Origin: Desulfobotulus mexicanus | GTDB taxonomy: Bacteria; Desulfobacterota; Desulfobacteria; Desulfobacterales; ASO4-4 | Reading direction: 5' to 3' | Length of the DNA: 43,686 bases | Assembly (NCBI RefSeq): GCF_006175995.1 | Contig: NZ_VDMB01000008.1 | Location: 95,518 to 139,203, forward strand | Notes under the pieces: generated by a model | What the model was told of the DNA's origin: nothing | What the model saw: only the letters and a program-made list of their open reading frames with translations | Database searches by the model: none | In this document: positions 5,983 to 41,179 of the stretch, piece after piece | How positions within the stretch are numbered: the first letter of the stretch is position 1 | Layout of the letters: the number at the start of each line of letters is the position of its first letter | Position numbers and translations under genes: made by a program

Positions 5983-6791
5983 CAGTCTTTCCCATCCCGC
6001 ATGAAAGTATCTGCCTGATTTACCAGTCCGTCCAGCATTGCCCGTGCTTCCTTGCATACCTGACCGCAATGAATACGAAGGCATGCATAAATATCCGGAA
6101 TACGGTCCTCAGCTCCCTCAGAGAGAACCTGCTGCAGCAGCTCCCCATAGGAGGCAGCCCTGTTTGCAGCCAGATACTTCAAAGCACCCGTGAGTTTATG
6201 GGCCATTTTACCCAAGGCTTCATAATCTTTTTTCTCCACCAGACGACCCATTATCTCAATTTCCTGCGGTTGATTCTCTATGCAGTTTCTCAACAAAACC
6301 TTCTGGACAAGGGGACTTTCCCCTACAATGGCAACCAGAGCTTCTCTGTCAATGGCAGGGCCTTCCCCTTTGGATACAGCCAAACCCCTTCCTTTTTCCC
6401 CATTATGGGAATACAGATACTTTGTCAGCATTGCCCCAAGGGCCTGTTTTCTAAGGGGCTTGGTCAGATAATCATCCATGCCTGCGGCCAGAAAACGCTC
6501 CCTGTCCCCTTTCAGGGCATGGGCGGTAAGGGCAATGACAGGGAGACTTCTCCCATATCGCTCCCGGATTTTTATGGTGGCTTCAAATCCATCCATTTCC
6601 GGCATCTGCCCATCCATCAATACAAGATCCGGCAAACCTTCCTTCTCCAGCCAGTCAAGGGCTTCTTTCCCGTTTTCCACTGACACCACACCAAAGCCGA
6701 TGGAACGTAAGATGTTTTCGGCAACCTCACGGTTAATGACATGGTCCTCCACCAGCAGGATCTGAAAACCTTCTCCTGAAAAATTATTCAT
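5982..6791 (-). CDS. Receiver domain-Hpt domain two-domain phosphorelay protein
   Basis: 269 aa from the ATG at 6791, chosen for the AAAGGAATTCC upstream. Residues ~9-125 are a complete response-regulator receiver: acidic pocket E14/D15, phosphoacceptor D60 (LVLMDGQMPEMDG), T89 and K111. Residues ~145-265 form a histidine phosphotransfer domain with H198 in MAHKLTGALKYLA. No kinase core, DNA-binding or output enzyme domain is present, so it should act as an intermediate in a multi-step phosphorelay whose hybrid kinase is encoded elsewhere. It resembles the detached C-terminus of a BarA/ArcB-like hybrid kinase. Translationally coupled to the AI-2E permease downstream. Confidence 0.9.
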   Translation of the reverse strand: MNNFSGEGFQILLVEDHVINREVAENILRSIGFGVVSVENGKEALDWLEKEGLPDLVLMDGQMPEMDGFEATIKIRERYGRSLPVIALTAHALKGDRERFLAAGMDDYLTKPLRKQALGAMLTKYLYSHNGEKGRGLAVSKGEGPAIDREALVAIVGESPLVQKVLLRNCIENQPQEIEIMGRLVEKKDYEALGKMAHKLTGALKYLAANRAASYGELLQQVLSEGAEDRIPDIYACLRIHCGQVCKEARAMLDGLVNQADTFMRDGKD

Positions 6792-6951
6792 GGAATTCCT
6801 TTTTTTCTGAACAGGTGGCTGCAGATAATGCCTTATGCAAATAAAAGACAACCCCACACCTGAAAAAACGGCCATTGTCTTCTCAAATCCCGAAAACTTT
6901 TGAAAACAAAAAAATACTGTAAAGACAGATTTCCGCTTATTTTATAAAATA

Positions 6952-7314
6952 TCACGCTTCAGAAACTTCTGTTTTCTCAAGAGAAGAAGGAGATTCAGGT
7001 TCCCTGTGCGGAAACTCTTCCCCACTTTTTTCAGCAATGATTTCAGACAACTCAGGATATTGCCCTGCTATAAAATCCAGAGCTGCGGCCCTTCTTCCAG
7101 CAATGGTTTCAAGATTTCCTATGGAAGTCCTCTGACTTTCCATAATGGAAGAAAACTGCATACGTACCTGTTCCTCATTTCGTTTAAGAATATTGTAAAC
7201 AAAAATCAGAGATAAAACCTCAAGGAAGAGCGCAAGCATGAATCCAATGACAAAGCCCCTGTCATAACCGTAATAGACGCAGCCCATGGCAAGAACGGCT
7301 GTTATCAAAACCAT
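6952..7314 (-). CDS. Small membrane protein with cytoplasmic helical tail
   Basis: 120 aa from the ATG at 7314, which has GCAGGAG six bases upstream; the ATG at 7341 lacks a site. There are two closely spaced hydrophobic segments (MVLITAVLAMGCVYYGYD and FVIGFMLALFLEVLSLIFVY). A ~75-residue polar helical region and an acidic Ser/Pro-rich end (PHREPESPSSLEKTEVSEA) follow. No family recognised. It starts divergently from the LOG-family gene. Confidence 0.65.
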   Translation of the reverse strand: MVLITAVLAMGCVYYGYDRGFVIGFMLALFLEVLSLIFVYNILKRNEEQVRMQFSSIMESQRTSIGNLETIAGRRAAALDFIAGQYPELSEIIAEKSGEEFPHREPESPSSLEKTEVSEA

Positions 7315-7605
7315 AAAAAACTCCTGCTCCCCAGAAAACATAAGAGATCTGATGCGTTCCCACCAGCAGGTCCGGACACAGAATACGGACTATTACCGGG
7401 TTTCAATATACATGGCTACTGTGTTAAATATACTTTCTTTTATTATACAGAAGGTGGCATGCTGAAAAAAGGGTAAAAACAAAACTCCGACAGAAAAAAT
7501 GAAAGCAGGATTAAAAAAACACCTTTTTTTTCCTGTACCCGGAGTTATAATAATACTTTAAGCTGGTACAAAAATATCCGGCGATTCAGAATGAGGGAGA
7601 TCGAT

Positions 7606-8484
7606 ATGAGTGTAATGCAATATCCCAGAGGTGCTTTCCCATCCGCAGACATGGATGCCAAGCGCGCCCAGCAGATAGAAGAAACGGAACAGACCCTTTC
7701 CCCGGCCTACAGGCTGGCTTTTCTGGACGAAGATCTTCTGGTACGCAGCAGCCTGCGACCTGTCCGCCTTCAGCTGGAAATGATGAAACCTGAAATTGTC
7801 CTCACCGAAGAGGGCATAGAATCCACAATCGTGATTTTCGGCAGTGCCCGCCTTCCGGATCCGGAAACAGCCCTTTACCAGATGGAGGAAGCCAGACGGA
7901 ATCTCGCCATGGCTCCCGAAGATGAGGAACGTATCCAGCGGCTGAAACAGACGGAACGGGCCGTGGAAATGAGCCGCTATTATGATGAAACAAGAAAGCT
8001 TGCCCGTCTTGTTTCTGAAAACACAGGCCCCAACCGCCATGTGGTCATCACCGGCGGCGGTGGCGGCATTATGGAGGCTGCCAACCGCGGTGCACACGAT
8101 GTCAATGCCAAAAGCATCGGCCTTAATATTGTCCTGCCCTTTGAGCAGGCACCCAACCCCTACATCACACCGGAGCTATGCTTTCAGTTCCACTACTTTG
8201 CCATAAGAAAAATGCATTTTCTCATGCGGGCCAAAGCTCTGGTGGCCTTTCCCGGCGGTTTCGGCACCCTCGATGAGTTGTTTGAAGCCTTAACCCTCAT
8301 CCAGACCGGAAAAATGGAAAAACTGCCGGTGCTGCTTTTCGGTAAGGAATTCTGGCACAACCTCATCAACTTTGACTACCTCGTTGAGCAGGGAACCATT
8401 TCTCCCTCGGATCTTTCCCTCTTCCAGTATGTCAGTACCGCAGAAGAAGCATGGGAAATCATCCGGGCCTCCAACGGACTTTAA
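7606..8484 (+). CDS. LOG-family protein (cytokinin-activating / nucleotide 5'-monophosphate phosphoribohydrolase-like)
   Basis: 292 aa from the ATG at 7606, preceded by GAGGGAG at 6-nt spacing. The Rossmann-type LOG (lysine-decarboxylase-like) core shows IFGSARLP, the GGGGGIMEAANRGA loop and the signature PGGFGTLDELFE. LOG proteins cleave ribose 5-phosphate from purine nucleotides. This one has an N-terminal extension of ~70 residues and an inserted helical segment between the first strand and GGGGG, as in the longer YgdH/PpnN-like and TIGR00730-like bacterial forms. Exact substrate unknown. Ends at a bidirectional terminator. Confidence 0.85.
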   Translation: MSVMQYPRGAFPSADMDAKRAQQIEETEQTLSPAYRLAFLDEDLLVRSSLRPVRLQLEMMKPEIVLTEEGIESTIVIFGSARLPDPETALYQMEEARRNLAMAPEDEERIQRLKQTERAVEMSRYYDETRKLARLVSENTGPNRHVVITGGGGGIMEAANRGAHDVNAKSIGLNIVLPFEQAPNPYITPELCFQFHYFAIRKMHFLMRAKALVAFPGGFGTLDELFEALTLIQTGKMEKLPVLLFGKEFWHNLINFDYLVEQGTISPSDLSLFQYVSTAEEAWEIIRASNGL

Positions 8485-8594: not shown

Positions 8595-8632
8595 AAAACC
8601 CCCACCGTATCAAAGATGCGATGGGGGTTTTT
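8595..8632. terminator. Bidirectional rho-independent terminator
   Basis: AAAACCCCCACCG / CGATGGGGGTTTT hairpin (one mismatch) with a T run on the plus strand and a matching A run upstream that becomes a T run on the minus strand. It separates the converging LOG and HdrD-like genes. Confidence 0.85.
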
Positions 8633-8659: not shown

Positions 8660-9991
8660 TTATTCGTCATCTTCCGCAGTTTTGGGAAGGTTTACTTCCT
8701 GAAGCTCAGGACCCAGATAGGTTCTCTCATTGGGGCCAAGAATACCAAGGGAAAGACAGATAATAGTCCAGATGTGAACCACATGATAATGGGCACCATA
8801 AACCTCACCCAACTCATGGATCTGAGCGTGGCAGTTATGACAGCCTGCAACGCAATAGGTGGCACCTGTGGCCTGAATCTGAGCGTCCTTGATTTTTCCG
8901 TACTGCAGGCGTTCTTCCTTGAATCCGCTCTGGAGAAAACCACCGCCCCCGCCACAGCAGAAGTTGTTGGACTTGCCCGGATACATATCAATCAGATTTT
9001 CTTTGCCCACACAGGATTCAATGACAAAACGGAGGTTGTCCGCAGCCCTGTCGCCAAAGGCTTTGCGTACAATATTGCAGGGATCCTGTACCGTGAACTT
9101 GATCCCAAGCTCCTTGTTCCAGTCGGAATTTACGGGAAGCTTGCCTTCACGGATCCAGTCTGCATAGTAATTGTAGATGTTTTCGATTTTTTCTACGTTG
9201 GTATCAATGTTGAACTTTTTCTGTCCTGCCAGGACAGAGAAGGTGATGTGCCCTCATTCAGTATTGAGGAAAACCTTGCACCCCAGTTCATCGGCCTTAC
9301 CCAAAGTCCCCCTTGTATGCTTTTCCCAGGAAGGATCATCGGCAAGAAAAAGACAATAGTTCTCACCGGCCCAGCCAGTAGAACCATAGGTCCAGTCCGC
9401 ACCCACAAGGTTGAGAATCTTCCAGAGGGGAACCATTTCCTCAGGCTCCACCATGGGCTCACGGGAGTTCTGGTTCAGGAAGAAGTAGGCACCCTGCTTG
9501 TCTATGGGGGCCTGAAGATCTCTTTCTTCCCATTCGGGCTGCTCTTCCCTCACTTCATCCAGAATATCCTGCACCACAAACTCAAAATCCTCCTGGGTTG
9601 TGCCCATGGCACTCAGGGTAGGATTCTTCATGGCCATATCACAGGAAGCAAGAATACCTTTGGGTCTTTCTTCTCTGGGATTCAGTTTTCTGGCATTGAA
9701 CACCAGCTGCGGGATATTGATCTTCATGGGGCAGGCATACATACACCGCGTACACATGCTGCACATCCATACCCACTCGCTCTTTTTGATCTCCTCATCC
9801 ATGCCCAGCGCGGCCATTCTCAGAAACTTCCGGGGATCCATATCCCGAAGCCCTGTAGCCGGGCAGCCGGAAGCACAGAGACCGCAAGTCAGGCAGGCAT
9901 TGAGGTTTCCGCCCTCCGGCAGAATCTCCTTCACCTTATCGATGAAGAAGCTGCCCGACTTCTTCTCTATCTTGACTGCTTCTTCCGCCAT
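8660..9991 (-). CDS. Selenocysteine-containing HdrD/DsrK-like (Fe-S) CCG-domain protein, read through UGA at 9254-9256
   Basis: 443 residues if the in-frame TGA (9254-9256, codon 246) encodes selenocysteine; the frame is otherwise open and unshifted. Start ATG has GGAGGAG upstream. Two [4Fe-4S] ferredoxin motifs come first (C33-x2-C36-x2-C39-x3-CP; C77-x2-C80-x2-C83-x3-CP). A degenerate first CCG domain ends ..VFLNTE-U-GH. A complete C-terminal CCG domain follows: C305-x39-CCG-x36-CxxC (C345, C346, C384, C387). This is the layout of HdrD, DsrK and GlpC-like subunits that pass electrons to disulfides. In relatives a cysteine is expected in the E-C-G-H position, so Sec would replace a ligand or redox residue. 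Partner subunits are not adjacent. Without recoding it would be two fragments, the second lacking a start. Confidence 0.85.
9221..9256 (-). promoter_or_regulatory. Putative bacterial SECIS element following UGA codon 246
   Basis: On the mRNA strand the UGA (9256-9254) is followed after 23 nt by an apical loop GGC, closed by a perfect 7-bp stem CUGUCCU / AGGACAG (9237-9221). Bacterial SECIS elements are described as a short stem with a small loop whose first bases include a conserved G, about 16-37 nt after the UGA. All these features are met. Evidence is sequence and geometry only. Confidence 0.8.
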
Positions 9992-10519
9992 TTGTGCATC
10001 TCCTCCGTTTTGTTTTTTCTCAAAAACTTTCTTCCATCAGGTTTTCCATAATATTTACAGGAAATCTTCCGTGACGGGCTGGCCACGGCACACCTTCAGG
10101 AAACCCGAATATCGGCGGGAGGCCGCCCACTGGCGATCAGGGACTGCCTCCTGACATGTAGTGTCTGAACAAAAGCCGCTTTTTTCCCGATCCAATACCT
10201 GAAATTTTATTATCATTTTATACATGCATCCCATAGTCTCACCGGAATGCGGATTTTCATAATTTCAGATTATCACAATACCCGGAAAGGCCAAAAAACC
10301 ACTTTCGGCCAGCCACTATTTAGACTATTACTTTTTCTTCTCCCTTATTCCAGTGCCTGTGTCAATACAAAATCGGGAATCCATTTATAATGCAAATACG
10401 ACTCATTGAAAAAATACCACCGTCATATCCCGCTGCCAAGTCTTTGAAAAAGTTCCATGGCACCACATCAAACAGAAATAAAATCATAAAAAAAAGACAA
10501 TAACAGAATATATGTCGGA
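9992..10519 (-). other. Long upstream region / structured leader of the HdrD-like gene
   Basis: No gene. On the minus strand, upstream of the HdrD-like start, inverted repeats occur at 10069-10088 (CCGTG..CACGG) and 10118-10151 (GGAGGC..GCCTCC). Between them lies CCGAATATCGG. These could form a structured 5' leader. The stretch from 10160 to 10519 is AT-rich and I see nothing else in it. The promoter of the HdrD-like gene could not be placed with confidence. Confidence 0.35.
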
Positions 10520-10548
10520 TTGACACCGATTTAGCCATACGATAATAC
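10520..10548 (+). promoter_or_regulatory. Sigma-70-type promoter for dapL
   Basis: TTGACA (10520-10525), a 17-nt spacer and TAATAC (10543-10548): a near-consensus promoter about 110 bases before the dapL start, in the right orientation. Confidence 0.7.
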
Positions 10549-10656
10549 TTATTATGGGGAAAAAAACGCATCCCCTTTCCCAAAAGCCAGATACCCTGCC
10601 CCATACGCAGGGAAAACCTTTTTAAAGCCCAATGACCTCCAGCCAAGGACTTATCC

Positions 10657-11877
10657 ATGATCAGAATGAACAGCCATTACAAAAAACTCAAGGCCTCCTA
10701 TCTTTTTTCCGACATTGCAAAGCGTGTCAGCACCTTTCAGGAAAACAATCCAGACACCCCCATCATCCGCCTTGGCATAGGGGATGTAACCCACGGACTG
10801 CCCGAGGCCTGCATCAAAGCCCTGCATAATGCCGTGGATGAAATGGCTGAAGATAAAAGCTTCAAGGGCTATGGCCCGGAGCAGGGCTATGCCTTTCTGC
10901 GGGAAGCCATTGCAGAAAATGATTTCAAATCCAGGGGATGCGCCATTGAAGCCGATGAGATTTTTGTCAGCGATGGTGCCAAATGTGACACAGGCAATTT
11001 TCAGGAGCTCTTTGCCACAGACATCCGGGTAGCCATTCCCGACCCCGTATATCCGGTGTATCTGGATACCAACATCATGGCAGGACGCACCGGAGAATTT
11101 CTTGATGGCCGGTATCAGGGTCTCGTTTATCTGGACAGCACAGCAGAAAACGGCTTTGTTCCCCCTGTCCCCGAACAGGCCGTGGACCTGATCTACCTCT
11201 GCTACCCCAACAATCCCACCGGAGCTACGGCCAGCCGTGCCCAGCTTCAGGAATGGGTGGACTATGCAAGGAAAAACAAGGCTCTGATTCTCTTTGATGC
11301 GGCCTATGAAGCCTTTATCACAGACCCGGAAATCCCCCACTCCATCTATGAAATTCCCGGCGCAAGGGAAGTGGCTGTGGAGTTCCGCAGTTTTTCAAAA
11401 ACCGCAGGCTTCACCGGCACCCGCTGTGCCTTTACCGTGGTTCCCAAGGATTGTATGATCTATGATGAAAAGGGAGAAGCCCATGCTCTCCATGCCCTGT
11501 GGAACCGCCGCCACTGCACCAAGTTCAACGGCGTGGCCTACCCCATCCAGAAGGCGGCTGCAGCAGTGTACAGCCCCGAAGGGCAGGCGCAGGTCAAGGC
11601 CCTCATCACCGGATACCTCGAAAATGCCACCATTATCCGCAGCGCCATGAAAGAGCTTGGCTTTGACTGTGTGGGGGGCGACAACTCTCCTTATATATGG
11701 ATCAACGGTAAAAGCGATTCCTGGGAATTCTTTGACCGCCTTTTAAAGGCTGGGGTTGTCTGCACACCGGGTGCTGGCTTTGGCCGCTGCGGAGAAGGCT
11801 TCATCCGCATTTCCGCCTTTAATTCAAAGGTCAATGTGGTTGAGGCCATGGAACGCATCCGGAAAACACTGGCCTGA
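10657..11877 (+). CDS. dapL: LL-diaminopimelate aminotransferase
   Basis: 406 aa, typical for DapL. It is a PLP-dependent class I/II aminotransferase that converts tetrahydrodipicolinate directly to LL-diaminopimelate for lysine and peptidoglycan synthesis. Visible family marks: [20 protein letters not shown] at the N-terminus, [42 protein letters not shown], and the PLP lysine K248 in [12 protein letters not shown]. An AAGGA sits 7 bases before ATG 10657; ATG 10666 is a weaker alternative. Expressed from its own promoter. Its stop codon falls inside the target-site duplication of a MITE-like element that separates the gene from its terminator. Confidence 0.95.
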
Positions 11878-18672: not shown

Positions 18673-18715
18673 TTGACAGGAAACAAGAGATTTTGTAAAA
18701 AACTGACATGTCAGT
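18673..18715 (+). promoter_or_regulatory. Promoter and operator of the TetR gene
   Basis: TTGACA (18673-18678), 17 nt, TAAAAA (18696-18701). A perfect 14-bp palindrome ACTGACATGTCAGT (18702-18715) follows and covers the TetR start codon. The same half-site recurs upstream of the RND gene at 19580-19597, so this is likely an autoregulatory operator. Confidence 0.75.
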
Positions 18716-19325
18716 CACCGCTTCACATAAAGCCACCACAAGGCAAAATATCCTGGATGCAGCCATAGCCATCTTCAGGGAAAAGGGCTTTCAGAAAACC
18801 CGTGTATCGGACATTGTTTCCGCTGCGGGTCTGGCCCAGGGCACCTTTTATCTGTATTTTAAATCCAAGGAAGACATCGCAAGGGAAATCTGCAGAAACT
18901 TCATGGACAGTTTCAGTGGCATTGTTGAAGCAGACCACAACATCTTTGAAAGCAAAACCATAGATGAGCTAAACAGCCGCCTCAGGCAAATGGTTTTCAG
19001 TGCGCTGAAGGTCTTTAAAAACAATGCCGAAGCCGCTGAAATTGTTCTCAGGGAAGGCATAGGTCAGGGCGGGCTGTTCAAGGAACTTTACGAAAATCTT
19101 ATCATCCGTTTTATTGAGCTTCTCGGTGAAAAAATTGCCAATGGTCGCAGCCAGAACATGCTGGGCATTCCCAATCCGGACACAGCAGCCGTTTTCATTG
19201 TAGGCCTTGTAGAACGCAGTTTCTTCTTTTTTATGGTCATGCGCAAAGACCTTAATATTGATGTAATTGCCGATGATATGACCTCTTTCATACTACACGG
19301 GCTTGCACTGCAGTCCCAGCAATGA
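18708..19325 (+). CDS. TetR/AcrR-family transcriptional regulator
   Basis: 205 aa, usual length. The N-terminal HTH domain is clear: TRQNILDAAIAIFREKGFQKTRVSDIVSAAGLAQGTFYLYFKSKEDI (residues ~11-57). The C-terminal ligand domain is helical and hydrophobic (ends ..DDMTSFILHGLALQSQQ). It is followed on the same strand by the RND exporter operon, and its operator palindrome is shared with that operon. It therefore probably represses both itself and the exporter until a hydrophobic ligand binds. The start codon lies inside the operator. Confidence 0.9.
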   Translation: MSVTASHKATTRQNILDAAIAIFREKGFQKTRVSDIVSAAGLAQGTFYLYFKSKEDIAREICRNFMDSFSGIVEADHNIFESKTIDELNSRLRQMVFSALKVFKNNAEAAEIVLREGIGQGGLFKELYENLIIRFIELLGEKIANGRSQNMLGIPNPDTAAVFIVGLVERSFFFFMVMRKDLNIDVIADDMTSFILHGLALQSQQ

Positions 19326-19416
19326 AATGCATGGTCAGACAAGACCCATACGAACGAATATTTTGATGCAGGCAGGCTTGAAGGCCTGCCCCAGCGAAGG
19401 TTTTTTCGGCCCTCTT

Positions 19417-19521
19417 TTGTAGGGGCAGGCCCCCGTGCCTGCCCTGGTTTTGGGCAACCACAGGGGGTTGCCCCTACAGAAAACCCATTAATGTTTCACG
19501 GTTGACCGCTTGGAGTATAAG
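19417..19521. repeat. 105-bp dispersed repeat with REP-like hairpin, copy 1
   Basis: Identical over all 105 bases to 33437-33541. The first ~61 bases form an imperfect palindrome (TGTAGGGGCAGGCCCCC.. / ..GGGGGTTGCCCCTACA). The remaining ~44 bases (..aatgtttcacggttgaccgc..) are not palindromic but are copied too. Another small hairpin (GGCAGGC ttgaag GCCTGCC, ~19371-19390) lies just before it and could act as the TetR terminator. Confidence 0.95.
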
Positions 19522-19579
19522 ATGCAGAGCATGGAAACACCACTGCCCGGAAAATGGCAGTTTTTTTAAAACCAGCAAG

Positions 19580-19597
19580 TGACTGACAAGTCAGTCA
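19580..19597 (+). promoter_or_regulatory. Operator upstream of the RND exporter gene
   Basis: TGACTGACAAGTCAGTCA: 8-bp perfect arms around a 2-bp centre, sharing CTGACA..TGTCAG-type half-sites with the palindrome at the TetR start (18702-18715). Predicted TetR-family binding site. Confidence 0.75.
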
Positions 19598-19614
19598 AGA
19601 AACGGAAAAGGCTG

Positions 19615-22600
19615 ATGGTGAAAGAAAAAAAGCTTGCCGATATTATTCTCCCCGCTGCAGGCAACTTCAAGCTGCTGATCAGCTGCCTGAGTCTCATTAC
19701 AGTCTTTTTTGCCCATGGCATGGGAAAACTCACCATAGAAAATGACATCATGTTCATGCTCCCGGACAGCAACCGGGAGAAAACCATCTTCATGGATACC
19801 CAGGAAACCTTCGGTTCCACAACGGGTATAGTCATTTCCATTGGCTCGGAAAAGGGCATCCTTGACCCCCTGCTGCCCGAAAAACTTCAGACAGCAGGAA
19901 ACCGGATTTTAAAAAGCAACCAGACCATACCTGCCCGCCTTATAGAAAAAAAACTGGGCATCTCCCTGAATCAGGCCCTTGTGCTTACGGCCTTTCTTCA
20001 GAACCTCGCTGCCATTGAGGGCAAAGACTTCATCCCCCATCCCGACCTGTTTGCAGATACATATGAAATGGAAGAAAACCTAAGGGAATCCATCCCCTTT
20101 GATCTTTATACCTCCATTAATACGGAAGACATCCGCCGGGTAGCAGGCAGACTTTCGGAAAGAGCCACCCTGAATCCGGATTTCGGAAAAGAACTCATGG
20201 GCATCATCCATAAGCCCACAGACAACCGGGACTTCAATAAAGGGATCTGGGTGGATCAGATTTCCTCCATCATGGAAAGCGACACGGTATGGCCTGAATT
20301 TTCTTTCTTTGATGCCATCGACAGCTTTTTTGAAAACAAAGGTTTTGCAGATACGGCTTCCGGACGCAGGCTGGCCAGTCTGATGCTGGAAAAGGGCCTG
20401 ACCCGTCCTGAAAGCATAGGGACCTTTCTCATGGAATACAGGGGAAAAGGACCTGAAACGAACATCGCTCCGGACTTTTTCCGCCAGATCCGCGAGCAAT
20501 CCCTAAGAGATCCGGCCTTCATTACAGATTTTCATCATGCCATGGCAGGCACTCCAAAACAGATCCGCACAGGCCGCATCTTCAACCCGGAAACGGACAG
20601 CCCGGCACTGCTCCGGGAAAGACTTCAGGGCTGGTCCCTTTTTAAAGGAACCCTTTACAGTAGCGATGAAAAAGCCACCCTTCTTTTTGTAAAAACCGCA
20701 TCCAACCTCAACAAAGAGAATAAGGCCCTGCTCCTTGGCGAGGTTTCCAGAATTCTGGAAGATGTTTTTGGAGATACAGACTTCACATATCATATGGCTG
20801 GCGAACCTGTGGTGGACAATGAAATCGGAACCCTCATGATAAAAGACATTACCTGGCTCTTTCCCGTGGTGAGCCTTGTGGTCATAACATCGCTTTTTCT
20901 CATGTTCCGCAATCTGCCCGGCGTACTCTATCCCATGCTGACGGTACTGATTTCCCTTGTCTGGTGCTTTGGCCTCATGGGTTATGCCGGTATTCCAGTT
21001 TCCATTGTCTCTTCTGCCCTTCCCGTGCTTCTCGTGGCTGTCGGAACGGCCTATGCCATTCACCTCACCCACGCTTTTCAGCAGGGCAGAAAAGAAAACC
21101 CTGATCCAAATGCCCTTGCACGCAGGGTACTCAACCTCACCGGCGGCGGAGTTCTCATGGCCGGCCTCACAACCATGGCTGGCTTTGCCTCCCTTGCCGT
21201 CAACCGCATTATACCCCTGCGGGATTTCGGTATCTTCATAAGCCTTGGTATTGCCTTTGCCCTTATCCTTGCCCTTCTCATTATTCCGGCCTTCATGCTC
21301 CGCAGCCGGGATAATTCCATGGCTGAAAAAAAGAGTCTCCCGGCCCGCAAAAATCCGATGCTCTCGGCCCTCTCCCTTTTCAGCTGCCGGAAACCTAAAA
21401 CCGTTACCTTCCTCTACCTTGCCGTATTTGCCGTATCCATAACAGGGGCGATGCTGCTTCGGGTAGAGATGAATAACATCACATTTTTTAAAAAAGACGC
21501 CCCCATACGCATGGCAGATACCTTCATCAACGATCATTTTGCTGGCACTTCCGGCCTCACGCTGATTCTTTCGGGCGAAAACCCAGGCGATGCCCTGAAT
21601 CCTGAAATCGTGGCACTCATGGAAAAGCTATCCCGGCAACTTCTTGAGACCCATCCTGAAATTGGTAAAATTGTCAGCCCTGCGGATTTTATTAAAAAAA
21701 TGAATCAGGCCTTTTTTGATAATGACCCCTCCCGCTACAGACTGCCGCAGATGGCAGACCTTGCCGGAGAAAAAAGCCCGGAAGCCCTCCATGCCCAGTA
21801 TGAGGCCTACATGGACAAATACCAGAGAAGGGATACCCGGAGCCTCATGGATTCTTCCAGAAAAGAAGCTGCCCTTGGCATTCAGATGAAAACCGCCTGC
21901 AGTACGGTGGTCCGGGAAGTGACCCGAAGCGCTGTGGATTTTCTCCAAGGCCCCGGCGGACAAATTCTGCGGGACAAAAACATGACCTTTAAGGTTACAG
22001 GCCCCGGTACCCTCTACCTTGAAGCCAACCAGCTCATCGTGAAGGGACAGATCGGCTCCATCGCCATCTCCTTTTTTCTGGTATTTTTCGTGGTGGCCCG
22101 ACTGATGAAATCCTTTATCTACGGTTTTTTCAGCCTGATTCCCTTAGCTTTCACCATCACAGTTACCTTCGGCATCATGGGTTTTGCCGGTATTGCCTTA
22201 GATGTGGCCACGGCCATCACGGCATGTGTGGCCATAGGCATAGGCATTGATTACGGGATTCATTATCTGGTGCATTACCGGGATTCCAGAAGTCAGGGGC
22301 TGGGCCACATAGAAGCCATCCTCCACACGGCTCAGGGGACGGGTAAGGCCATTTTCTTCAACGCAACAGCCGTGACAGCGGGTTTTCTTGTGCTTCTGGC
22401 TTCCGCCTTCATTCCCTTAATAAATCTTGGCATCCTGATTTCCATCACCATGATCTGCTCTGCCCTTGCGGCCATGACCCTGCTTCCAGCAGCCCTCACC
22501 CTTGCGGAATCCAGACTCCATAAAATCCATGAAGCAGGCCGGAAAAACAAAAACACTTTAAGTGAAAAACCTTCCCATATCCCCCCAGACCAAGGAGAAG

Positions 22601-22617
22601 AATACCATGCAGCTTAA
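19615..22617 (+). CDS. RND-superfamily (MMPL/HAE3-type) exporter
   Basis: 1000 aa from ATG 19615 (GGAAAAGG upstream); a GTG at 19579 lies inside the operator and is less likely. Two repeated halves: TM1, a large periplasmic loop, then a bundle of spans (DITWLFPVVSLVVITSLFLMF, PGVLYPMLTVLISLVWCFGL, SIVSSALPVLLVAVGTAYAIH..). The second half repeats this with VTFGIMGFAGIALDVATAI, and GIGIDYGIHYLVHYRD carries the acidic residue typical of proton relay. The size and the sterol-sensing-like core fit HAE3/MmpL-like lipid or hydrophobe exporters. First gene of a three-gene envelope operon under TetR control; cargo is probably an apolar lipid or hydrocarbon. Confidence 0.9.
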   Translation: MVKEKKLADIILPAAGNFKLLISCLSLITVFFAHGMGKLTIENDIMFMLPDSNREKTIFMDTQETFGSTTGIVISIGSEKGILDPLLPEKLQTAGNRILKSNQTIPARLIEKKLGISLNQALVLTAFLQNLAAIEGKDFIPHPDLFADTYEMEENLRESIPFDLYTSINTEDIRRVAGRLSERATLNPDFGKELMGIIHKPTDNRDFNKGIWVDQISSIMESDTVWPEFSFFDAIDSFFENKGFADTASGRRLASLMLEKGLTRPESIGTFLMEYRGKGPETNIAPDFFRQIREQSLRDPAFITDFHHAMAGTPKQIRTGRIFNPETDSPALLRERLQGWSLFKGTLYSSDEKATLLFVKTASNLNKENKALLLGEVSRILEDVFGDTDFTYHMAGEPVVDNEIGTLMIKDITWLFPVVSLVVITSLFLMFRNLPGVLYPMLTVLISLVWCFGLMGYAGIPVSIVSSALPVLLVAVGTAYAIHLTHAFQQGRKENPDPNALARRVLNLTGGGVLMAGLTTMAGFASLAVNRIIPLRDFGIFISLGIAFALILALLIIPAFMLRSRDNSMAEKKSLPARKNPMLSALSLFSCRKPKTVTFLYLAVFAVSITGAMLLRVEMNNITFFKKDAPIRMADTFINDHFAGTSGLTLILSGENPGDALNPEIVALMEKLSRQLLETHPEIGKIVSPADFIKKMNQAFFDNDPSRYRLPQMADLAGEKSPEALHAQYEAYMDKYQRRDTRSLMDSSRKEAALGIQMKTACSTVVREVTRSAVDFLQGPGGQILRDKNMTFKVTGPGTLYLEANQLIVKGQIGSIAISFFLVFFVVARLMKSFIYGFFSLIPLAFTITVTFGIMGFAGIALDVATAITACVAIGIGIDYGIHYLVHYRDSRSQGLGHIEAILHTAQGTGKAIFFNATAVTAGFLVLLASAFIPLINLGILISITMICSALAAMTLLPAALTLAESRLHKIHEAGRKNKNTLSEKPSHIPPDQGEEYHAA

Positions 22618-23410
22618 AACCATCATGACAGCCCTTCTGTTTTTTGTACTGGGTACAGGTTCTGCATCCGCAGATATCGGCCCTTTCAATCCGGAAACAG
22701 CCGGAAAAGAAGGCCGGATCATTGCCGAAAAGGTAGAGGAATTCAACAGACCGGAAAAGGATCTGTCCATACTGGCCTCCATGACCCTGCTGGCAGGTGA
22801 AAGGGTCACTGATACCCGGCAGGTGGCCATACGCCAGAAAAATTATGGAGCAACGGACCGTTATGCCATGCGCTTTCTCGACTCCATCAAACGGGGGACC
22901 ACCTTTCTGACCATAGAAAATGAAAACAGGGACAATGACCAGTACCTCTACATTCCAGCCCTGGGACGGGCCAGAAAAATAGCCGTGGGTGACAGTCAGA
23001 ATGCCTTTGAAGATACGGATTTTTCCTATGAGGATCTGGGAGGACGAAAACTTGATGACTATATGCACGAGCGCAGAAGCGATGCCGTTTTTAACGAAAG
23101 GGAGTGCTTCCGTGTGGAATCCAGAGCCAAAGACAGTTCCGCACGCTATCCGAGACAGCTCAGCTGGATAGACAAGGAAAACTATCTGCCCCTTCAGGTA
23201 CGTTTTTTCGGCAGGGATGGCCGATTAGAAAGGGTGATTGTGGCGGGTGAGGTGCAGAAAATTGAAGGGATTCATATTCCCTTCCGCACCGTGGCCAGAG
23301 ATCTCAGGACCAGCCACACCACCACAATGGAAATCCTTGAAGTTACGATAAATACAGGACTGGGCAATGCAAGCTTTGACCCGGACAGAATGGGGGACGC
23401 ATGGCGATGA
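22607..23410 (+). CDS. LolA-like periplasmic outer-membrane lipoprotein-sorting family protein
   Basis: 267 aa from ATG 22607, chosen for the AAGGAG upstream and because it begins a clean signal peptide (MQLKTIMTALLFFVLGTGSASA, cleavage before DIGPF). The mature part has the beta-rich LolA_like pattern: KDLSILASMTLLAGERVTDTR.., YLYIPALGRARKIAVGDSQNAFEDTDFSYEDLGG.., WIDKENYLPLQVRFFGRDG. Such proteins shuttle lipids or lipoproteins across the periplasm and are often encoded beside HAE3-type RND exporters. The gene overlaps the RND gene by 11 bases and the barrel gene by 4-10. Confidence 0.85.
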   Translation: MQLKTIMTALLFFVLGTGSASADIGPFNPETAGKEGRIIAEKVEEFNRPEKDLSILASMTLLAGERVTDTRQVAIRQKNYGATDRYAMRFLDSIKRGTTFLTIENENRDNDQYLYIPALGRARKIAVGDSQNAFEDTDFSYEDLGGRKLDDYMHERRSDAVFNERECFRVESRAKDSSARYPRQLSWIDKENYLPLQVRFFGRDGRLERVIVAGEVQKIEGIHIPFRTVARDLRTSHTTTMEILEVTINTGLGNASFDPDRMGDAWR

Positions 23411-24819
23411 AAAAAATCTCCATACTGCTTCTTGTTCTTTTTCTGACAGCTTCCGCCATAGCCATGGACGAGGATGGGGATTTTGATTTTGCTGAACTGC
23501 TCGGAACTTCCCTGCCCGGCAGTACCCAAACAGCGCCTGCTGTTTCAATGACACAGCGGTTCAGGCTTGAAGGAGAGCTGAGACCTTCTATCTGGTATGG
23601 CCTGAAAGATCCCCATGATGTTCAGACCACAAACCGGTTGGATCTTCTCATGGAAGCACACATGAAAAATACAAGCCTTGTGGCAAGGCTCAGGGGAGAT
23701 TATCAGGATATAGAAAACAAGGATGAATTCACAGGAGATATCAGGGAGCTTTATTTCCAGCAGCAGGGCTATCTCAAAAAAACCTATCTTTCCTTCAGTG
23801 CGGGCAGAAAAATCCTGCACTGGGGCAAAGGGGATGAAATCCGGCCCATGGACCGCATCTGCCCTGAAGATATGCGGGCCTTTCTCTACTACGACAAAAA
23901 CGATCGCAAATCTGGCCTCACGGGTCTTTTTGTAGAATCCGCCATGCCGGGAGGACTCAGGGTGGAAGCCTTCTGGTCGCCTGTTTTTGTGGGATCTGCC
24001 ATGCCGGACCATGGAAGTTACTTCACTTCCATGCGTCTGCAGAAGTTCAGCGATGCAGGGGGCCGCATCATCGAAAGCGATGATGACTGGACCTGGGACG
24101 GCCAGAGTTCCATAGGCTTAAAGATCGGCCTGCCCCTGAAAAGGGCCGATGCCTCCCTCTATGCATGGCGGGGAAAAGACCCCATGCCAATGCTGAAGGT
24201 CTCCGGGGTGATCCGCCAGATTCCCATGGAAAACCCGCCTTATGATATGGATATACCGCCTGCGGCAACTACGCTTTCATGGTTTCACAGTGATGCCGTG
24301 GTTTTCGGGGCAGATTTTGAAGCCAGTGCAGGTGCCTGGGTTTTCCGCACAGAGGGCGCATGGCAGACAAAGGGCCATTACGAAATGATGGATTTTGAAA
24401 AAAATCCTCTTCTTCTGAATACCTTTCCCGAGGGCCTTGCAGAAAAGCAGAAGGGAGAATTTCTCATGGGCGTAGACAGAAACGACCTTTTCTTCCGCAA
24501 TCTTTTTGTCAATGTCCAGTATTTGGGTGTGTACATACACGACCATGAAAAATTTATGGAAAGGGATGCTTACACCCAAGGGGCCAGCTTTACCATGAAG
24601 TACAGCGCCTTTGACTCCCGCATCAGCACCCTTTGGCGGGTTTTTACCTGGATGAACAGTCAGGACAGACAGCATCAGGTGGAAGCATCGTGGAGGCCCT
24701 TTAGCAACACCCTTTTAACCGCAGGGGCATTTTTTTACAGCGGTGGCGGTGAAAGGGATGTGTTCGGCCAGTTCAGGGATAAGGATTTCACCTTTTTCAG
24801 GGGCAGTGTGATTTTCTGA
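23401..24819 (+). CDS. Outer-membrane beta-barrel protein, DUF1302-like
   Basis: 472 aa with an N-terminal signal peptide (MAMKKISILLLVLFLTASAIA). The body is amphipathic beta-strand-like and aromatic-rich, and the protein ends ..FTFFRGSVIF, with the terminal phenylalanine usual for BAM-inserted barrels. ATG 23401 has a G-rich site just upstream; ATG 23407 makes an ATGA overlap and is an alternative. With the RND exporter and LolA-like protein it makes a complete inner membrane / periplasm / outer membrane set, so it is probably the outer-membrane exit or docking protein. Closest remembered type is the DUF1302/DUF1329 barrel found beside RND exporters; this assignment is tentative. Confidence 0.8.
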   Translation: MAMKKISILLLVLFLTASAIAMDEDGDFDFAELLGTSLPGSTQTAPAVSMTQRFRLEGELRPSIWYGLKDPHDVQTTNRLDLLMEAHMKNTSLVARLRGDYQDIENKDEFTGDIRELYFQQQGYLKKTYLSFSAGRKILHWGKGDEIRPMDRICPEDMRAFLYYDKNDRKSGLTGLFVESAMPGGLRVEAFWSPVFVGSAMPDHGSYFTSMRLQKFSDAGGRIIESDDDWTWDGQSSIGLKIGLPLKRADASLYAWRGKDPMPMLKVSGVIRQIPMENPPYDMDIPPAATTLSWFHSDAVVFGADFEASAGAWVFRTEGAWQTKGHYEMMDFEKNPLLLNTFPEGLAEKQKGEFLMGVDRNDLFFRNLFVNVQYLGVYIHDHEKFMERDAYTQGASFTMKYSAFDSRISTLWRVFTWMNSQDRQHQVEASWRPFSNTLLTAGAFFYSGGGERDVFGQFRDKDFTFFRGSVIF

Positions 24820-29127: not shown

Positions 29128-29955
29128 ATGTGGGATTACACAGACAAGGTTCGGGAACACTTTCTGAACCCAAAAAACGTCGGCGAAGTAGAAAATCCGG
29201 ACGGAATCGGTGAAGTAGGCTCCATTGCCTGCGGCGATGCCCTGAAACTAACCTTCCGCCTTGGAGAAGATAAAACCATTACCGAAGCTAAATTCAAAAC
29301 CTTTGGCTGTGCCAGTGCCATTGCATCTTCCTCCGCACTCACGGAAATGATCATAGGCAAGACCCTGGAGGAAGCCGAAAAAATCAGCAACGAAAACATA
29401 GCAGAGTTTCTAGGCGGTCTTCCCAAGGAAAAGATTCACTGCTCGGTCATGGGACAGGAAGCTCTGGAAAAAGCCATTGCCTACTACAGGGGCGAGCCGG
29501 AAAAGGTACTGGAAGGAGAAATTATCTGCCACTGCTTTAACGTGACAGACGTGGACATCCAGAGGGCCGTGAAGGAAAAGGGCCTGAAAACCTTAGAGGA
29601 TGTCACAGGCTACCTCAAGGCCGGTGGCGGCTGCGGCAACTGCCACGAAGAAATTTCAAATATCATCAAAGCAAGTCAGGGAATCTCCATTATGGAGCCG
29701 AAAAAACCGGCTGCCGGACTGACCAATCTCCAGAAAATACGTAAAATTGAAGAAACCCTTGAAGTCGAAATCAAACCGGCACTGATAAGGGATGGCGGCA
29801 ATATTGAACTGGTGGACGTGGACGGCAACCGGGTACTGGTTCGTCTTCAGGGTGCCTGTGCCACCTGCCCCAGAAGCCGTATAACCCTGAAAGACCACGT
29901 GGAAGCCAGACTGCGTAACCTCGTGGCCCATGACCTTGTGGTGGAGGAGGCCTGA
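29128..29955 (+). CDS. nifU: Three-domain NifU iron-sulfur scaffold protein
   Basis: 275 aa, the full NifU layout. The IscU-like domain has C35, C61 and C105 in GSIACGD, FGCASAI and KIHCSVMG. The central [2Fe-2S] BFD-like domain has C134, C136, C169 and C172 (IICHCFNVTD.., GGGCGNCHEE). The C-terminal NifU/Nfu domain has CATC (C244, C247) in RLQGACATCPRSRITLKDHVE. It assembles Fe-S clusters on sulfur supplied by NifS and passes them to apo-proteins. No nitrogenase genes are nearby, so this is probably the general Fe-S machinery, as in other anaerobes. nifS starts 2 bases after its stop. Confidence 0.95.
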   Translation: MWDYTDKVREHFLNPKNVGEVENPDGIGEVGSIACGDALKLTFRLGEDKTITEAKFKTFGCASAIASSSALTEMIIGKTLEEAEKISNENIAEFLGGLPKEKIHCSVMGQEALEKAIAYYRGEPEKVLEGEIICHCFNVTDVDIQRAVKEKGLKTLEDVTGYLKAGGGCGNCHEEISNIIKASQGISIMEPKKPAAGLTNLQKIRKIEETLEVEIKPALIRDGGNIELVDVDGNRVLVRLQGACATCPRSRITLKDHVEARLRNLVAHDLVVEEA

Positions 29956-29957
29956 AA

Positions 29958-31121
29958 ATGACCCCTGTTTATCTGGACAACAATGCCACCACCAGAGTGG
30001 CCGATGAGGTCATTGAGGCCATGCTCCCGTATTTTACAGAGCTTTATGGCAACCCCTCATCCATGCATACCTTTGGTGGTCAGGTGGCCCAAAAAATCCA
30101 GACGGCCCGACAGCAGGTGGCAAGCCTTCTGGGGGCAGCAAGCAGCGATGAGATTCTTTTCACCAGCTGCGGCACGGAATCAGACGCAGCAGCAGTCCAT
30201 GCCGCACTCCGGGCCTTTCCGGAAAGAAAGCACCTGATAACCTCCACGGTGGAACATCCTGCCATCAAGGCCCTTTTTGAAAAGCTTGCCAAAGAAGGCT
30301 TTCGCATAACAACCATTCCCGTGGACACACGGGGCAGACTGAACATGGATCTGCTGGAAAAAAGCCTGGATGAAGATACAGCCATTGTCAGCATGATGTG
30401 GGCCAACAACGAAACCGGCACCCTCTTTCCCGTGGAAGCCATCGGAAAACTCTGCAGGGAAAAGGGCATTCTTTTCCATACGGATGCGGTACAGGCCGTG
30501 GGGAAGATTCCCATGGACCTTAAAACCATGCCCATTGATCTTTTATCCCTGTCCGGACACAAGCTCCATGCGCCCAAAGGTGTTGGTGCCCTGTACATCA
30601 GAAAAGGGACCCCCTTTACACCTTACATTGTTGGGGGCCATCAGGAACATGGTCGCAGGGCTGGCACGGAAAACGTGGCCTCCATCATCGGTCTGGGCAG
30701 GGCCTGCCTTATGGCCGAAGAAAAAATGGCCGAAGAAAACACAAGGGTCAGGGCCATGCGGGACCGCTTAGAAAAGGAGCTTCTCAGCCGTATTCCCAAA
30801 TGCTTTGTCAACGGAGATCTGGATGCCCGCCTGCCCAATACCTGTTCCATCAGCTTTGAATACATTGAGGGAGAAGCCATCCTCCTGATGATGAACCAGT
30901 ATGGCATCTGTGCCTCTTCCGGTTCCGCCTGTACATCGGGCTCCCTTGAACCCTCCCATGTACTCCGGGCCATGGGCGTTCCCCATACTGCAGCCCACGG
31001 CACCATCCGTTTCAGCTTGAGCATCTACAATACAGAGGCTGAAATGGATACTGTCATTGAAAAACTTCCACCCATTGTTAAACGCTTAAGGGATATGTCA
31101 CCCTTCTGGTCGGACTCATGA
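29958..31121 (+). CDS. nifS: Cysteine desulfurase
   Basis: 387 aa. PLP-dependent class V aminotransferase fold: LDNNATTRVADEV at the N-terminus, H100 in STVEHPAI, HTDAVQAVGK, the PLP lysine K202 in SGHKLHAPKGVG, and the sulfur-carrying C325 in CASSGSACTSGSLEPSHVL. It takes sulfur from cysteine as a persulfide for NifU. GGAGG within the end of nifU serves as its ribosome site. Ends at a strong bidirectional terminator. Confidence 0.95.
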   Translation: MTPVYLDNNATTRVADEVIEAMLPYFTELYGNPSSMHTFGGQVAQKIQTARQQVASLLGAASSDEILFTSCGTESDAAAVHAALRAFPERKHLITSTVEHPAIKALFEKLAKEGFRITTIPVDTRGRLNMDLLEKSLDEDTAIVSMMWANNETGTLFPVEAIGKLCREKGILFHTDAVQAVGKIPMDLKTMPIDLLSLSGHKLHAPKGVGALYIRKGTPFTPYIVGGHQEHGRRAGTENVASIIGLGRACLMAEEKMAEENTRVRAMRDRLEKELLSRIPKCFVNGDLDARLPNTCSISFEYIEGEAILLMMNQYGICASSGSACTSGSLEPSHVLRAMGVPHTAAHGTIRFSLSIYNTEAEMDTVIEKLPPIVKRLRDMSPFWSDS

Positions 31122-38890: not shown

Positions 38891-41179
38891 ATGAAAACCA
38901 CCATCATCGGCTACCCTCGCATCGGCTGTGGGCGCGAACTCAAAAAAGCAACGGAAAACTATTTCCAGAACAAAATCAGCCCTGAAAATCTCAATGAACA
39001 GGCAAAAAGCCTCCGTAAAATTCACTGGGAAAAACAAATCAGCAAAGGAATAGATCTGCCCGTATCCAATGATTTTTCCTTTTACGATACCCTGCTGGAT
39101 ACAGCTCTTCTCTTCGGTCTTATTCCGGAACGCTTCACTGTCCTGCCCCAGGACCCTCTGATCCGCACCTTTGCCATGGCCAGAGGCTATAAAAAGGATG
39201 GATATCAGGCCAGCGCCCTTGCCATGAAAAAATGGTTCACAACCAATTATCATTATATGGTGCCGGAAGTGGATGAAAGCAGCAGCATCGGGCTTTCCGG
39301 ACACAAACCCCTCACAGAATTCAGGGAAGCCCTTTCCGCAGGCTTCCTTACAAGACCCATGCTCACAGGCCCCTATACCCTTTTACGCCTGACCCGCTTC
39401 AGCGGGGAGACCTCTGCTGTAAAATGTGCCCAGCGCCTTATCCCTGCCTACGCTCAACTGCTTTCAGCCCTCGGCGCTGCCGGAGCAAAATGGGTGCAGC
39501 TGGACGAGCCCTGCCTGTGTCTGGACATGGATGCTAGCGAAAAAGCCTTCTTCCATTCCCTCTACCAGCGCCTTGGAGAAAAAAATCCCGGTGTTAAAAT
39601 ACAGCTGCAAACCGCCTTCGGCGACATTACCCAAGTATATGACAGCCTTTCTTCTCTGCCCGTTCAGGCCATCGGTCTGGACTTTGTGGAAGGTCAAGGC
39701 AACCTCCTGAAACTGGAAAGTGACGGCTTTCCTGAAGATAAAATACTGGTGGCAGGCATTGTAAACGGCCGCAATGTATGGCGGAACAATTACAAAAAAA
39801 GCCTTGACATCATTTCCCGTATTTCAAAACATCTGCCCGCAGAGCGCATATGGCTTTCCCCTTCATGCTCCCTGCTGCACCTGCCCTACTCCCTTGGCCC
39901 TGAAACCGGACTCTCGCCGGAGCTCAGGGATATTCTGGCCTTTGCCGAAGAAAAAATGGAGGAACTTGGGGAGCTTTCCATCCTTTCTGCAGAAAACAAA
40001 CCGGAAAACCACCCCATCTTTCTCCGTAACCAGCAACGCTTTGAGCAGGCTGAAAAAATCCCCGGCCGTATACTACCGGAAGTCCGTAACAGAACCAGTT
40101 TTCTCCGGGACCAGTCCTTCCTGCGCATGCCCGATGCCGAAGCGAGAAAGTCCTGCCAGCAGAATCGGCTGAACCTGCCCCCTTTTCCCACAACCAGTAT
40201 TGGTTCCTTTCCCCAGACTGCTGAGATCCGTGCCATGCGCAGACTTTACCGCAAAGGGGAGGTTAAGCTAAGCGAGTATGAAGCCTTTCTGCGAAAGCGC
40301 ACGGAAGAATGCGTAAAACTTCAGGATGACATGGGACTGGATGTGCTGGTTCATGGTGAGTTTGAACGCAATGACATGGTGGAATACTTCGGAGAACAGC
40401 TGGATGGCTTCATTTTTACAGAAAACGCATGGGTACAGTCCTACGGTACACGCTGCGTCAAACCACCCATCCTCATGGGGGATGTCCGACGTCCCTGCCC
40501 CATGACCGTAGACACCTGGCGTTTTGCAGCAGGCTGTACAAAAAAACCCGTAAAGGGCATGCTCACCGGCCCTGTTACCATCCTCAACTGGTCCTTTGTG
40601 CGGGACGATGTGGAAAATACAGAGTGCCTGCTTCAGCTGGCTCTGGCCATCCGGGAAGAGGTGCTGGACCTTGAAGCTGCTGGCTGCGCCATAATACAGA
40701 TTGATGAAGCTGCCCTGCGGGAAAAGCTGCCCCTGAAAAAAAAGGACTGGAAATCTTATCTGGACAATGCCGTTAATGCTTTCCATCTCTGCCACGACGG
40801 CGTACGGCCGGACACACAGATACACACCCACATGTGCTACAGTGAATTCGGAGATATCCTTGAAGCAATTGATGCCATGGATGCGGATGTAATAACCATA
40901 GAGGCCGCAAGAAGTGCCCTCACCCTCGTGGATCAGCTGAAGAAAACTCCCTATGCAAGGGATATCGGACCGGGTGTTTATGACATCCACTCCCCACTGA
41001 TCCCCGGAGAAGAAGATATTCTCTTACGACTTGATACCCTGCTTTCCACACTGGAGCCGGAACAGCTCTGGATCAATCCGGACTGCGGCCTCAAAACCCG
41101 CAGCCCGAAAGAGGCTGAGGAGTCCCTTAAGGCCATGGTGAATGCGGCAAAGAAGCTCCGGGAAAAATACAGGTCCTGA
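38891..41179 (+). CDS. metE: Cobalamin-independent methionine synthase
   Basis: 762 aa, full length for MetE. N-terminal domain: IIGYPRIGCGRELKKATENYF. The catalytic C-terminal barrel begins LPPFPTTSIGSFPQT. Zinc and substrate regions: VLVHGEFERNDMVEYFGEQLDGF, IQIDEAALREKLPL, THMCYSEFGDIL (His and Cys ligands), and INPDCGLKTR (last Cys ligand). It transfers methyl from 5-methyltetrahydrofolate triglutamate to homocysteine without B12. Possible promoter and operator lie just upstream. The presence of a B12-free enzyme is notable in a group that usually makes corrinoids. Confidence 0.97.
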   Translation: MKTTIIGYPRIGCGRELKKATENYFQNKISPENLNEQAKSLRKIHWEKQISKGIDLPVSNDFSFYDTLLDTALLFGLIPERFTVLPQDPLIRTFAMARGYKKDGYQASALAMKKWFTTNYHYMVPEVDESSSIGLSGHKPLTEFREALSAGFLTRPMLTGPYTLLRLTRFSGETSAVKCAQRLIPAYAQLLSALGAAGAKWVQLDEPCLCLDMDASEKAFFHSLYQRLGEKNPGVKIQLQTAFGDITQVYDSLSSLPVQAIGLDFVEGQGNLLKLESDGFPEDKILVAGIVNGRNVWRNNYKKSLDIISRISKHLPAERIWLSPSCSLLHLPYSLGPETGLSPELRDILAFAEEKMEELGELSILSAENKPENHPIFLRNQQRFEQAEKIPGRILPEVRNRTSFLRDQSFLRMPDAEARKSCQQNRLNLPPFPTTSIGSFPQTAEIRAMRRLYRKGEVKLSEYEAFLRKRTEECVKLQDDMGLDVLVHGEFERNDMVEYFGEQLDGFIFTENAWVQSYGTRCVKPPILMGDVRRPCPMTVDTWRFAAGCTKKPVKGMLTGPVTILNWSFVRDDVENTECLLQLALAIREEVLDLEAAGCAIIQIDEAALREKLPLKKKDWKSYLDNAVNAFHLCHDGVRPDTQIHTHMCYSEFGDILEAIDAMDADVITIEAARSALTLVDQLKKTPYARDIGPGVYDIHSPLIPGEEDILLRLDTLLSTLEPEQLWINPDCGLKTRSPKEAEESLKAMVNAAKKLREKYRS

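Follow-up and report, generated by a model that had tools for sequence, protein, structure and literature searches.

The window analysed here is the whole stretch of 43,686 nucleotides from the sulfate reducer Desulfobotulus mexicanus, and the gene under study occupies 8660–9991 on its minus strand. Translation of the window bears out what the sequence-only reading had noticed, two pieces of a single minus-strand frame parted by nothing but one TGA at 9254–9256 (minus strand; codon 246, in the motif NTE-U-GH). Read through with selenocysteine (Sec) at this codon, the frame gives 443 residues with an N-terminal HdrC-like domain for two [4Fe-4S] clusters, then a degenerate first CCG domain (CCG1), then a complete second one (CCG2), as judged from the translation, the Pfam matches (Fer4_8 and one CCG domain), and an AlphaFold2 model. 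The start codon, read from the sequence, is the ATG at 9991–9989; a Shine-Dalgarno sequence GGAGG, read directly, lies 10 nt 5′ of it (10002–10006, minus strand). The second piece also lacks a credible start, as had been noted, because the first ATG, GTG, or TTG 3′ of the UGA is a GTG at 9010, 81 codons downstream; a CTG lies 7 codons downstream. The chance of 197 codons remaining open at the local base composition is about 7e-5. Fourteen TGA junctions in the window pass the length filter, and that of the HdrD-like gene is the one of the 14 analysed. A standard-code reading cuts the HdrD-like gene in two at the UGA; here it emerges as one gene, with a SECIS element behind its Sec codon.

Downstream of the stop codon, a terminator-like inverted repeat followed by TTTT was found by eye at 8595–8632 (minus strand); it is not among the results of a consensus terminator scan, which covers loops up to 8, and Rfam at gathering threshold gives no match in the window. 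The recognisable neighbours, a lysine-decarboxylase-like (LOG-type) gene at 7591–8484 and a class I/II aminotransferase gene at 10657–11877, are on the opposite strand, and an open reading frame of 98 residues on the same strand (10362–10658) has no Pfam match, its weak matches being confined to the nearest relative; the selenoprotein gene therefore has no recognised operon partner here. Elsewhere in the window, genes for a TetR-type regulator, an MMPL-family transporter, a LolA-like lipoprotein-sorting protein, and a DUF1302 protein follow one another on one strand (18708–24819); at 29128–31121 a nifU-like gene precedes one for a class V aminotransferase, a pair whose domains point to iron-sulfur cluster assembly; and a B12-independent methionine synthase, above its NCBIfam cut-off, is encoded at 38891–41179.

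Codon 246 is TGA in 113, TGC in 15, and TGT in one of 129 homologous tblastn matches in the fetched loci, so that the Cys expected at this position, and its exchange for Sec, are both seen among homologues; no further in-frame stop occurs in any of the 129 alignments. These counts refer to 129 HSPs in 126 loci, L021 being the window's own gene and L023/L071, L024/L109, and L025/L123 being apparently the same genes, counted in the 126; the sampling included the best 80 of 389 relatives in a scan of genome contigs and 16 further hand-picked stretches, 10 of them chosen for showing no TGA, which enriches the share of Cys among the 129. Counted as distinct sequences of 45 nt from codon 246 onward, which align without gaps, there are 89 with TGA and 16 with Cys.

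The RNA just past the UGA is predicted to form a SECIS hairpin (9221–9237, minus strand; 7 bp, 3-nt loop) that begins 16 nt past it. Over the 89 distinct UGA sequences, 97.4% of 623 cells are paired; double changes occur at four of the seven pairs, with a covariation score equalled by none of 500 shuffles and a number of further pair types equalled by seven of the 500. RNAalifold, unprompted, returns the identical seven pairs, and for the 51-nt segment of the window itself the folding z-score is −2.41. For the same columns of the 16 Cys sequences there is no support for a hairpin (50.0% of cells paired vs 48.8% in shuffles). The first base of the loop (9230) is G in all 89 UGA sequences; bacterial SECIS elements are described as requiring a G at this place. 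The residue at codon +8 is Arg in 50, Leu in 36, and Gln in three of these sequences, and where Leu or Arg precedes an Ala (72 sequences) it changes together with the third base of the Ala codon, giving 30 Leu-GCA and 42 Arg-GCC but no Leu-GCC or Arg-GCA. Among the remaining 17, two break that pair and one gives G-U. The sequences are related, and a Fisher value overstates the association; even so, a coupled switch of codon +8 and a synonymous third base, as read from these alignments, has hardly any explanation other than RNA pairing.

The genes for Sec synthesis and insertion, which had been named as a point to check, are present in the genome, each above its cut-off: selB (379 bits), the gene for tRNA-Sec (selC, 75 bits), selA (631 bits), and selD (381 bits). 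Absence of selB and selC had been named beforehand as refuting, and so had a lack of Cys at codon 246 in homologues; both genes are there, and 16 of the 129 matches carry Cys. The features of a bacterial selenoprotein gene are thus found together, namely a UGA at the Cys position of homologues, a SECIS element within the coding sequence just after it, and selA, selB, selC, and selD. From the codons of the homologues, the covarying hairpin (without support in the Cys forms), and these four genes it follows that UGA 246 almost certainly stands for Sec, as the sequence-only reading had proposed; it would be decoded by SelB and tRNA-Sec under the direction of the downstream hairpin. On the tree of the 50-row alignment described below, at least six changes between Sec and Cys fall at position 246, and the Sec and Cys forms therefore interchange.

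Whether the TGA form goes together with selA was considered and set aside as uninformative. The gene is found in 46 of the 47 family-bearing genomes (39/40 of those with a TGA match; 7/7 of those whose listed matches hold no TGA), which indicates no special association because 355 of the 395 genomes of the phylum sample have selA. G392 (90% complete) is a TGA-bearing genome without a selA match; for G005 (79% complete) and G078 (62% complete) a TGA match is listed and a selA match is absent. The selD match of the present genome (L018, G000:C12:40864-41781) itself has one in-frame TGA.

Substitutions on both sides of the UGA are mainly synonymous in three relatives, with omega values upstream/downstream of 0.047/0.106 (L051), 0.061/0.079 (L052), and 0.061/0.146 (L056); for a fourth relative (L022), dS is saturated upstream of the UGA and omega is 0.088 downstream. 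To judge by these substitutions, the downstream part is under real constraint, though weaker than upstream in L051, L052, and L056.

In the protein, Pfam recognises 4Fe-4S dicluster models (Fer4_8) and one CCG domain, and the N-terminal part matches HdrC with E 4.6e-21. The AlphaFold2 model built from 50 rows (mean pLDDT 89.1, pTM 0.87) has as its best solved fold match EtfD (9ojn; Foldseek E 1.5e-10, TMq 0.68), with a structural alignment of Z 26.1, rmsd 2.8, 369 residues, and 16% identity. HdrB chains come next (5odc, 8rvu, 8rvy, 8rwn, 7bkb; Z 21.1–22.0), and LutA (9a6l, Z 20.3) and a Helicobacter pylori protein (3kwl, Z 19.4) are other high matches. An HdrC-like dicluster part and two CCG folds are thus present in a single chain, CCG1 being seen in the fold and not by Pfam, and the product is, on the model, a soluble HdrC+HdrB fusion of the HdrD type (HdrD/EtfD fold) with both CCG folds present. 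The label HdrD/DsrK-like given in the sequence-only reading fits this order of fold matches. The absence of DsrK among them carries no information, and the identities of DsrK, TmcB, and HmcF themselves are rejected: these are the nearest NCBIfam profiles, yet their scores (TmcB 151.7, HmcF 144.8, DsrK 95.9 bits) are far under the equivalog cut-offs (735, 750, and 400, respectively). A true GlpC, subunit C of anaerobic glycerol-3-phosphate dehydrogenase, was rejected likewise (24 bits vs 279.9 for TIGR03379; 38.9 vs 278 for NF008369).

The cluster motifs were followed through an alignment of 50 hand-picked rows. Invariant in 50/50 rows are the 13 Cys that make up the dicluster and CCG2 motifs, E245, and H248, and position 246 is Sec or Cys. 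The 13 comprise two HdrC-like cubane [4Fe-4S] motifs, C33-C36-C39-C43 and C77-C80-C83-C87 (9731–9895, minus strand), and the CCG2 motif C305, C345-C346, C384, C387 (8831–9079, minus strand), which aligns with HdrB and EtfD; the perfect CCG domain that had been noted after the UGA is this complete CCG2. A degenerate first CCG domain carrying the Sec is likewise supported, with the refinement that an invariant His248 (9248–9250, minus strand) is kept besides codon 246; in the HMMER alignment this His falls on EtfD His583. Two complete CCG cluster sites, as in the HdrD type, are not found in the protein, where CCG1 keeps position 246 and, nearby, C213.

The 2026 structure paper on EtfD allows a concrete placement of Sec next to the noncubane cluster. 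According to this paper, Cys503, 538, 581, and 584 of EtfD bind a linear [3Fe-4S] cluster, and Cys637, 672, 673, 709, and 712 with His583 bind a noncubane [4Fe-4S] cluster; the same paper states that in Hdr the heterodisulfide is cleaved by noncubane clusters (PMC13083937). In a profile alignment to EtfD, position 246 falls on Cys581 and 248 on His583; 305 corresponds to Cys637 and the CC pair to 672–673, and a second sub-alignment agrees with this placement as far as that pair. Neither of two sequence sub-alignments extends to the first two ligands of the linear cluster in EtfD, the part of CCG1 before 246 being unaligned. Residue 249, at the place of EtfD Cys584, is Cys in none of the 50 rows. 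C213 is Cys in 96% of the 50 rows and Gly in the two most distant, both of which keep Sec or Cys at 246. The other ligands of the linear cluster appear to be lost, because the window protein has no Cys between 118 and 212 and at any position from 160 to 212 at most 3/50 rows have one. By comparison with EtfD, the noncubane site appears complete, His248 included, and the linear-cluster site appears reduced to Sec, perhaps with C213. His248 is probably a ligand of the noncubane cluster, by analogy only, because EtfD is only 16% identical over the fold alignment. The selenol of Sec246 would lie beside the noncubane cluster, as read from the anatomy of the aligned ligands.

The explanation preferred for the whole is a full-length soluble selenoprotein of the HdrD type whose selenol probably neighbours the noncubane cluster and works together with it, and we put the probability of this explanation at roughly three in four. 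With the hairpin as the signal, SelB and tRNA-Sec would read UGA 246 as Sec to give the 443-residue product. Electrons would pass from the two cubane [4Fe-4S] clusters of the HdrC-like domain to the noncubane [4Fe-4S] cluster, which would be bound by C305, C345, C346, C384, and C387 of CCG2 and probably by His248. The second cluster, bound by CCG1 in HdrB and EtfD, has apparently been lost, and the sole EtfD ligand of it that can be matched is position 246, now Sec. How the selenol might work with the neighbouring cluster is a tentative matter, drawn by analogy and a little short of an even chance: it may serve two-electron thiol/disulfide chemistry as the group that attacks or leaves, or it may bind the cluster's special iron as an exchangeable ligand. 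Somewhat more speculative again is the idea that the selenol has functionally replaced the lost second cluster, so that the selenol and one noncubane cluster would together carry out disulfide/selenenylsulfide chemistry, or Sec would serve as an exchangeable iron ligand. If true, a selenol working with a noncubane cluster would add a new type to the known redox sites. As to overall function, we infer electron transfer linked to thiols and disulfides, with HdrA/MvhD-type proteins as partners in some relatives.

Other explanations were weighed against this one. That the UGA is a true stop, a pseudogene, or a sequencing error, with a 245-residue HdrC-like fragment as the only product, would agree with genetic code table 11, where UGA is a stop, and with the weaker constraint downstream than upstream in the three relatives; it is hardly credible given that 88 other distinct sequences share the TGA of this codon, that no other stops occur, that the hairpin covaries, and that the Sec genes are present. 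A pseudogene or an assembly error is rejected on the TGA/TGC/TGT pattern of the homologues together with that hairpin. The function of Sec leaves more room for doubt. Sec246 might be a firm ligand of a second cluster in CCG1, held with C213 and non-Cys residues in the manner of the linear cluster of EtfD and only tuning potential. The alignment of 246 with Cys581, a ligand of the linear cluster, speaks for this, as does C213, which with Cys in 96% of the 50 rows might be the second ligand; but the absence of Cys from 118 to 212 leaves the HdrB/EtfD-type ligand set incomplete, and C213 gives way to Gly in the two most distant rows despite Sec or Cys at 246. This reading is unlikely, though far from negligible.

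Somewhat less probable still is that Sec is an oxidation-resistant stand-in for Cys that guards the noncubane cluster and has no catalytic role of its own. The exchange of Sec and Cys, with its six or more changes on the 50-row tree, speaks for this, since Sec is then not indispensable; the invariance of E245, position 246, and H248 in 50/50 rows suggests a chemical role instead. The family offers natural Sec and Cys versions, even in one genome (the window gene and a copy on G000:C44), that can be compared directly.

Sec in an Fe-S oxidoreductase of the UGH type is already known; what is added here is the proposed position of the Sec. Selenoproteins named Fe-S oxidoreductase (GlpC), with the motif UGH, are already in print (PMC1794560, PMC13188914, and PMC9312934), a table of the 2026 review among them giving "Fe-S oxidoreductase-like protein, UGH" (PMC13188914), and Sec in the GlpC-type family has been listed since 2006. 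The window protein shares with these COG0247-type selenoproteins of Deltaproteobacteria the Sec in U-G-H, here NTE-U-GH in a protein with CCG and Fer4 domains. The GlpC-family papers report operons that include hdrA and frhD, and HdrA- and MvhD-like genes do adjoin some relatives of the window gene; unlike those operons, the Sec copy in the window has no such neighbour, and the likeness is one of motif and domains. The genome paper on Desulfobacterium autotrophicum HRM2 lists a Sec-containing HdrD4 among soluble HdrD proteins with HdrC- and HdrB-homologous domains (PMC2702500), a likeness by description.

The resemblance to EtfD of Mycobacterium smegmatis (9ojn; PMC13083937) comprises the dicluster and two-CCG fold and the matching noncubane ligands, His583/His248 included. 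EtfD differs in its membrane part, its heme, and a linear [3Fe-4S] cluster bound by four Cys; in the window protein the set of linear-cluster ligands is incomplete and the position of Cys581 is Sec. The HdrB chains share the CCG2 motif and the CCG1-CCG2 fold; HdrB differs in having two noncubane clusters and in being a subunit separate from HdrC. In the open-licence literature searched, to the extent that its text was available, no text was found on the role of Sec or on its placement relative to the noncubane cluster.

Gene neighbourhoods were tallied for 55 gene copies with at least 3 kb on either side, all with TGA, in 54 of the loci L051–L130. Representatives of the MvhD/FlpD, MTHFR, MTHFR C-terminal (MetV), and CGGC neighbours were verified by Pfam; those of HdrA have NCBIfam matches under cut-off, plus FAD and Fer4 domains. 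In 20/55 copies an HdrA-like gene lies on the same strand no more than 3 kb away, and within these 20 fall all 12 copies with MetF-like, 10 with MvhD-like (FlpD), and 8 with MetV-like genes. None of the five neighbour types was found in 27/55 copies, including those of the nearest kin, Desulfobotulus and Desulfoluna; HdrA, MvhD, and MetV/MetF neighbours are absent beside the Sec copy in the present genome. A second copy in this genome (L131, G000:C44:4627-5904) has TGC at the Sec position and adjoins HdrA-like and MvhD-like genes. A CGGC-domain gene is near on the same strand in another 8/55 copies (e.g., L100:4010-4432). Genome G132 has two differing Sec-codon HdrD-like genes on one strand (L140:7350-8642 and L140:3342-4487; 64% and 35% identical to the window protein, respectively), with two ORFs between them that cluster with HdrA-like proteins, and Desulfamplus magnetovallimortis has tandem Sec-codon copies (L116:5001-6314 and 6779-8092).
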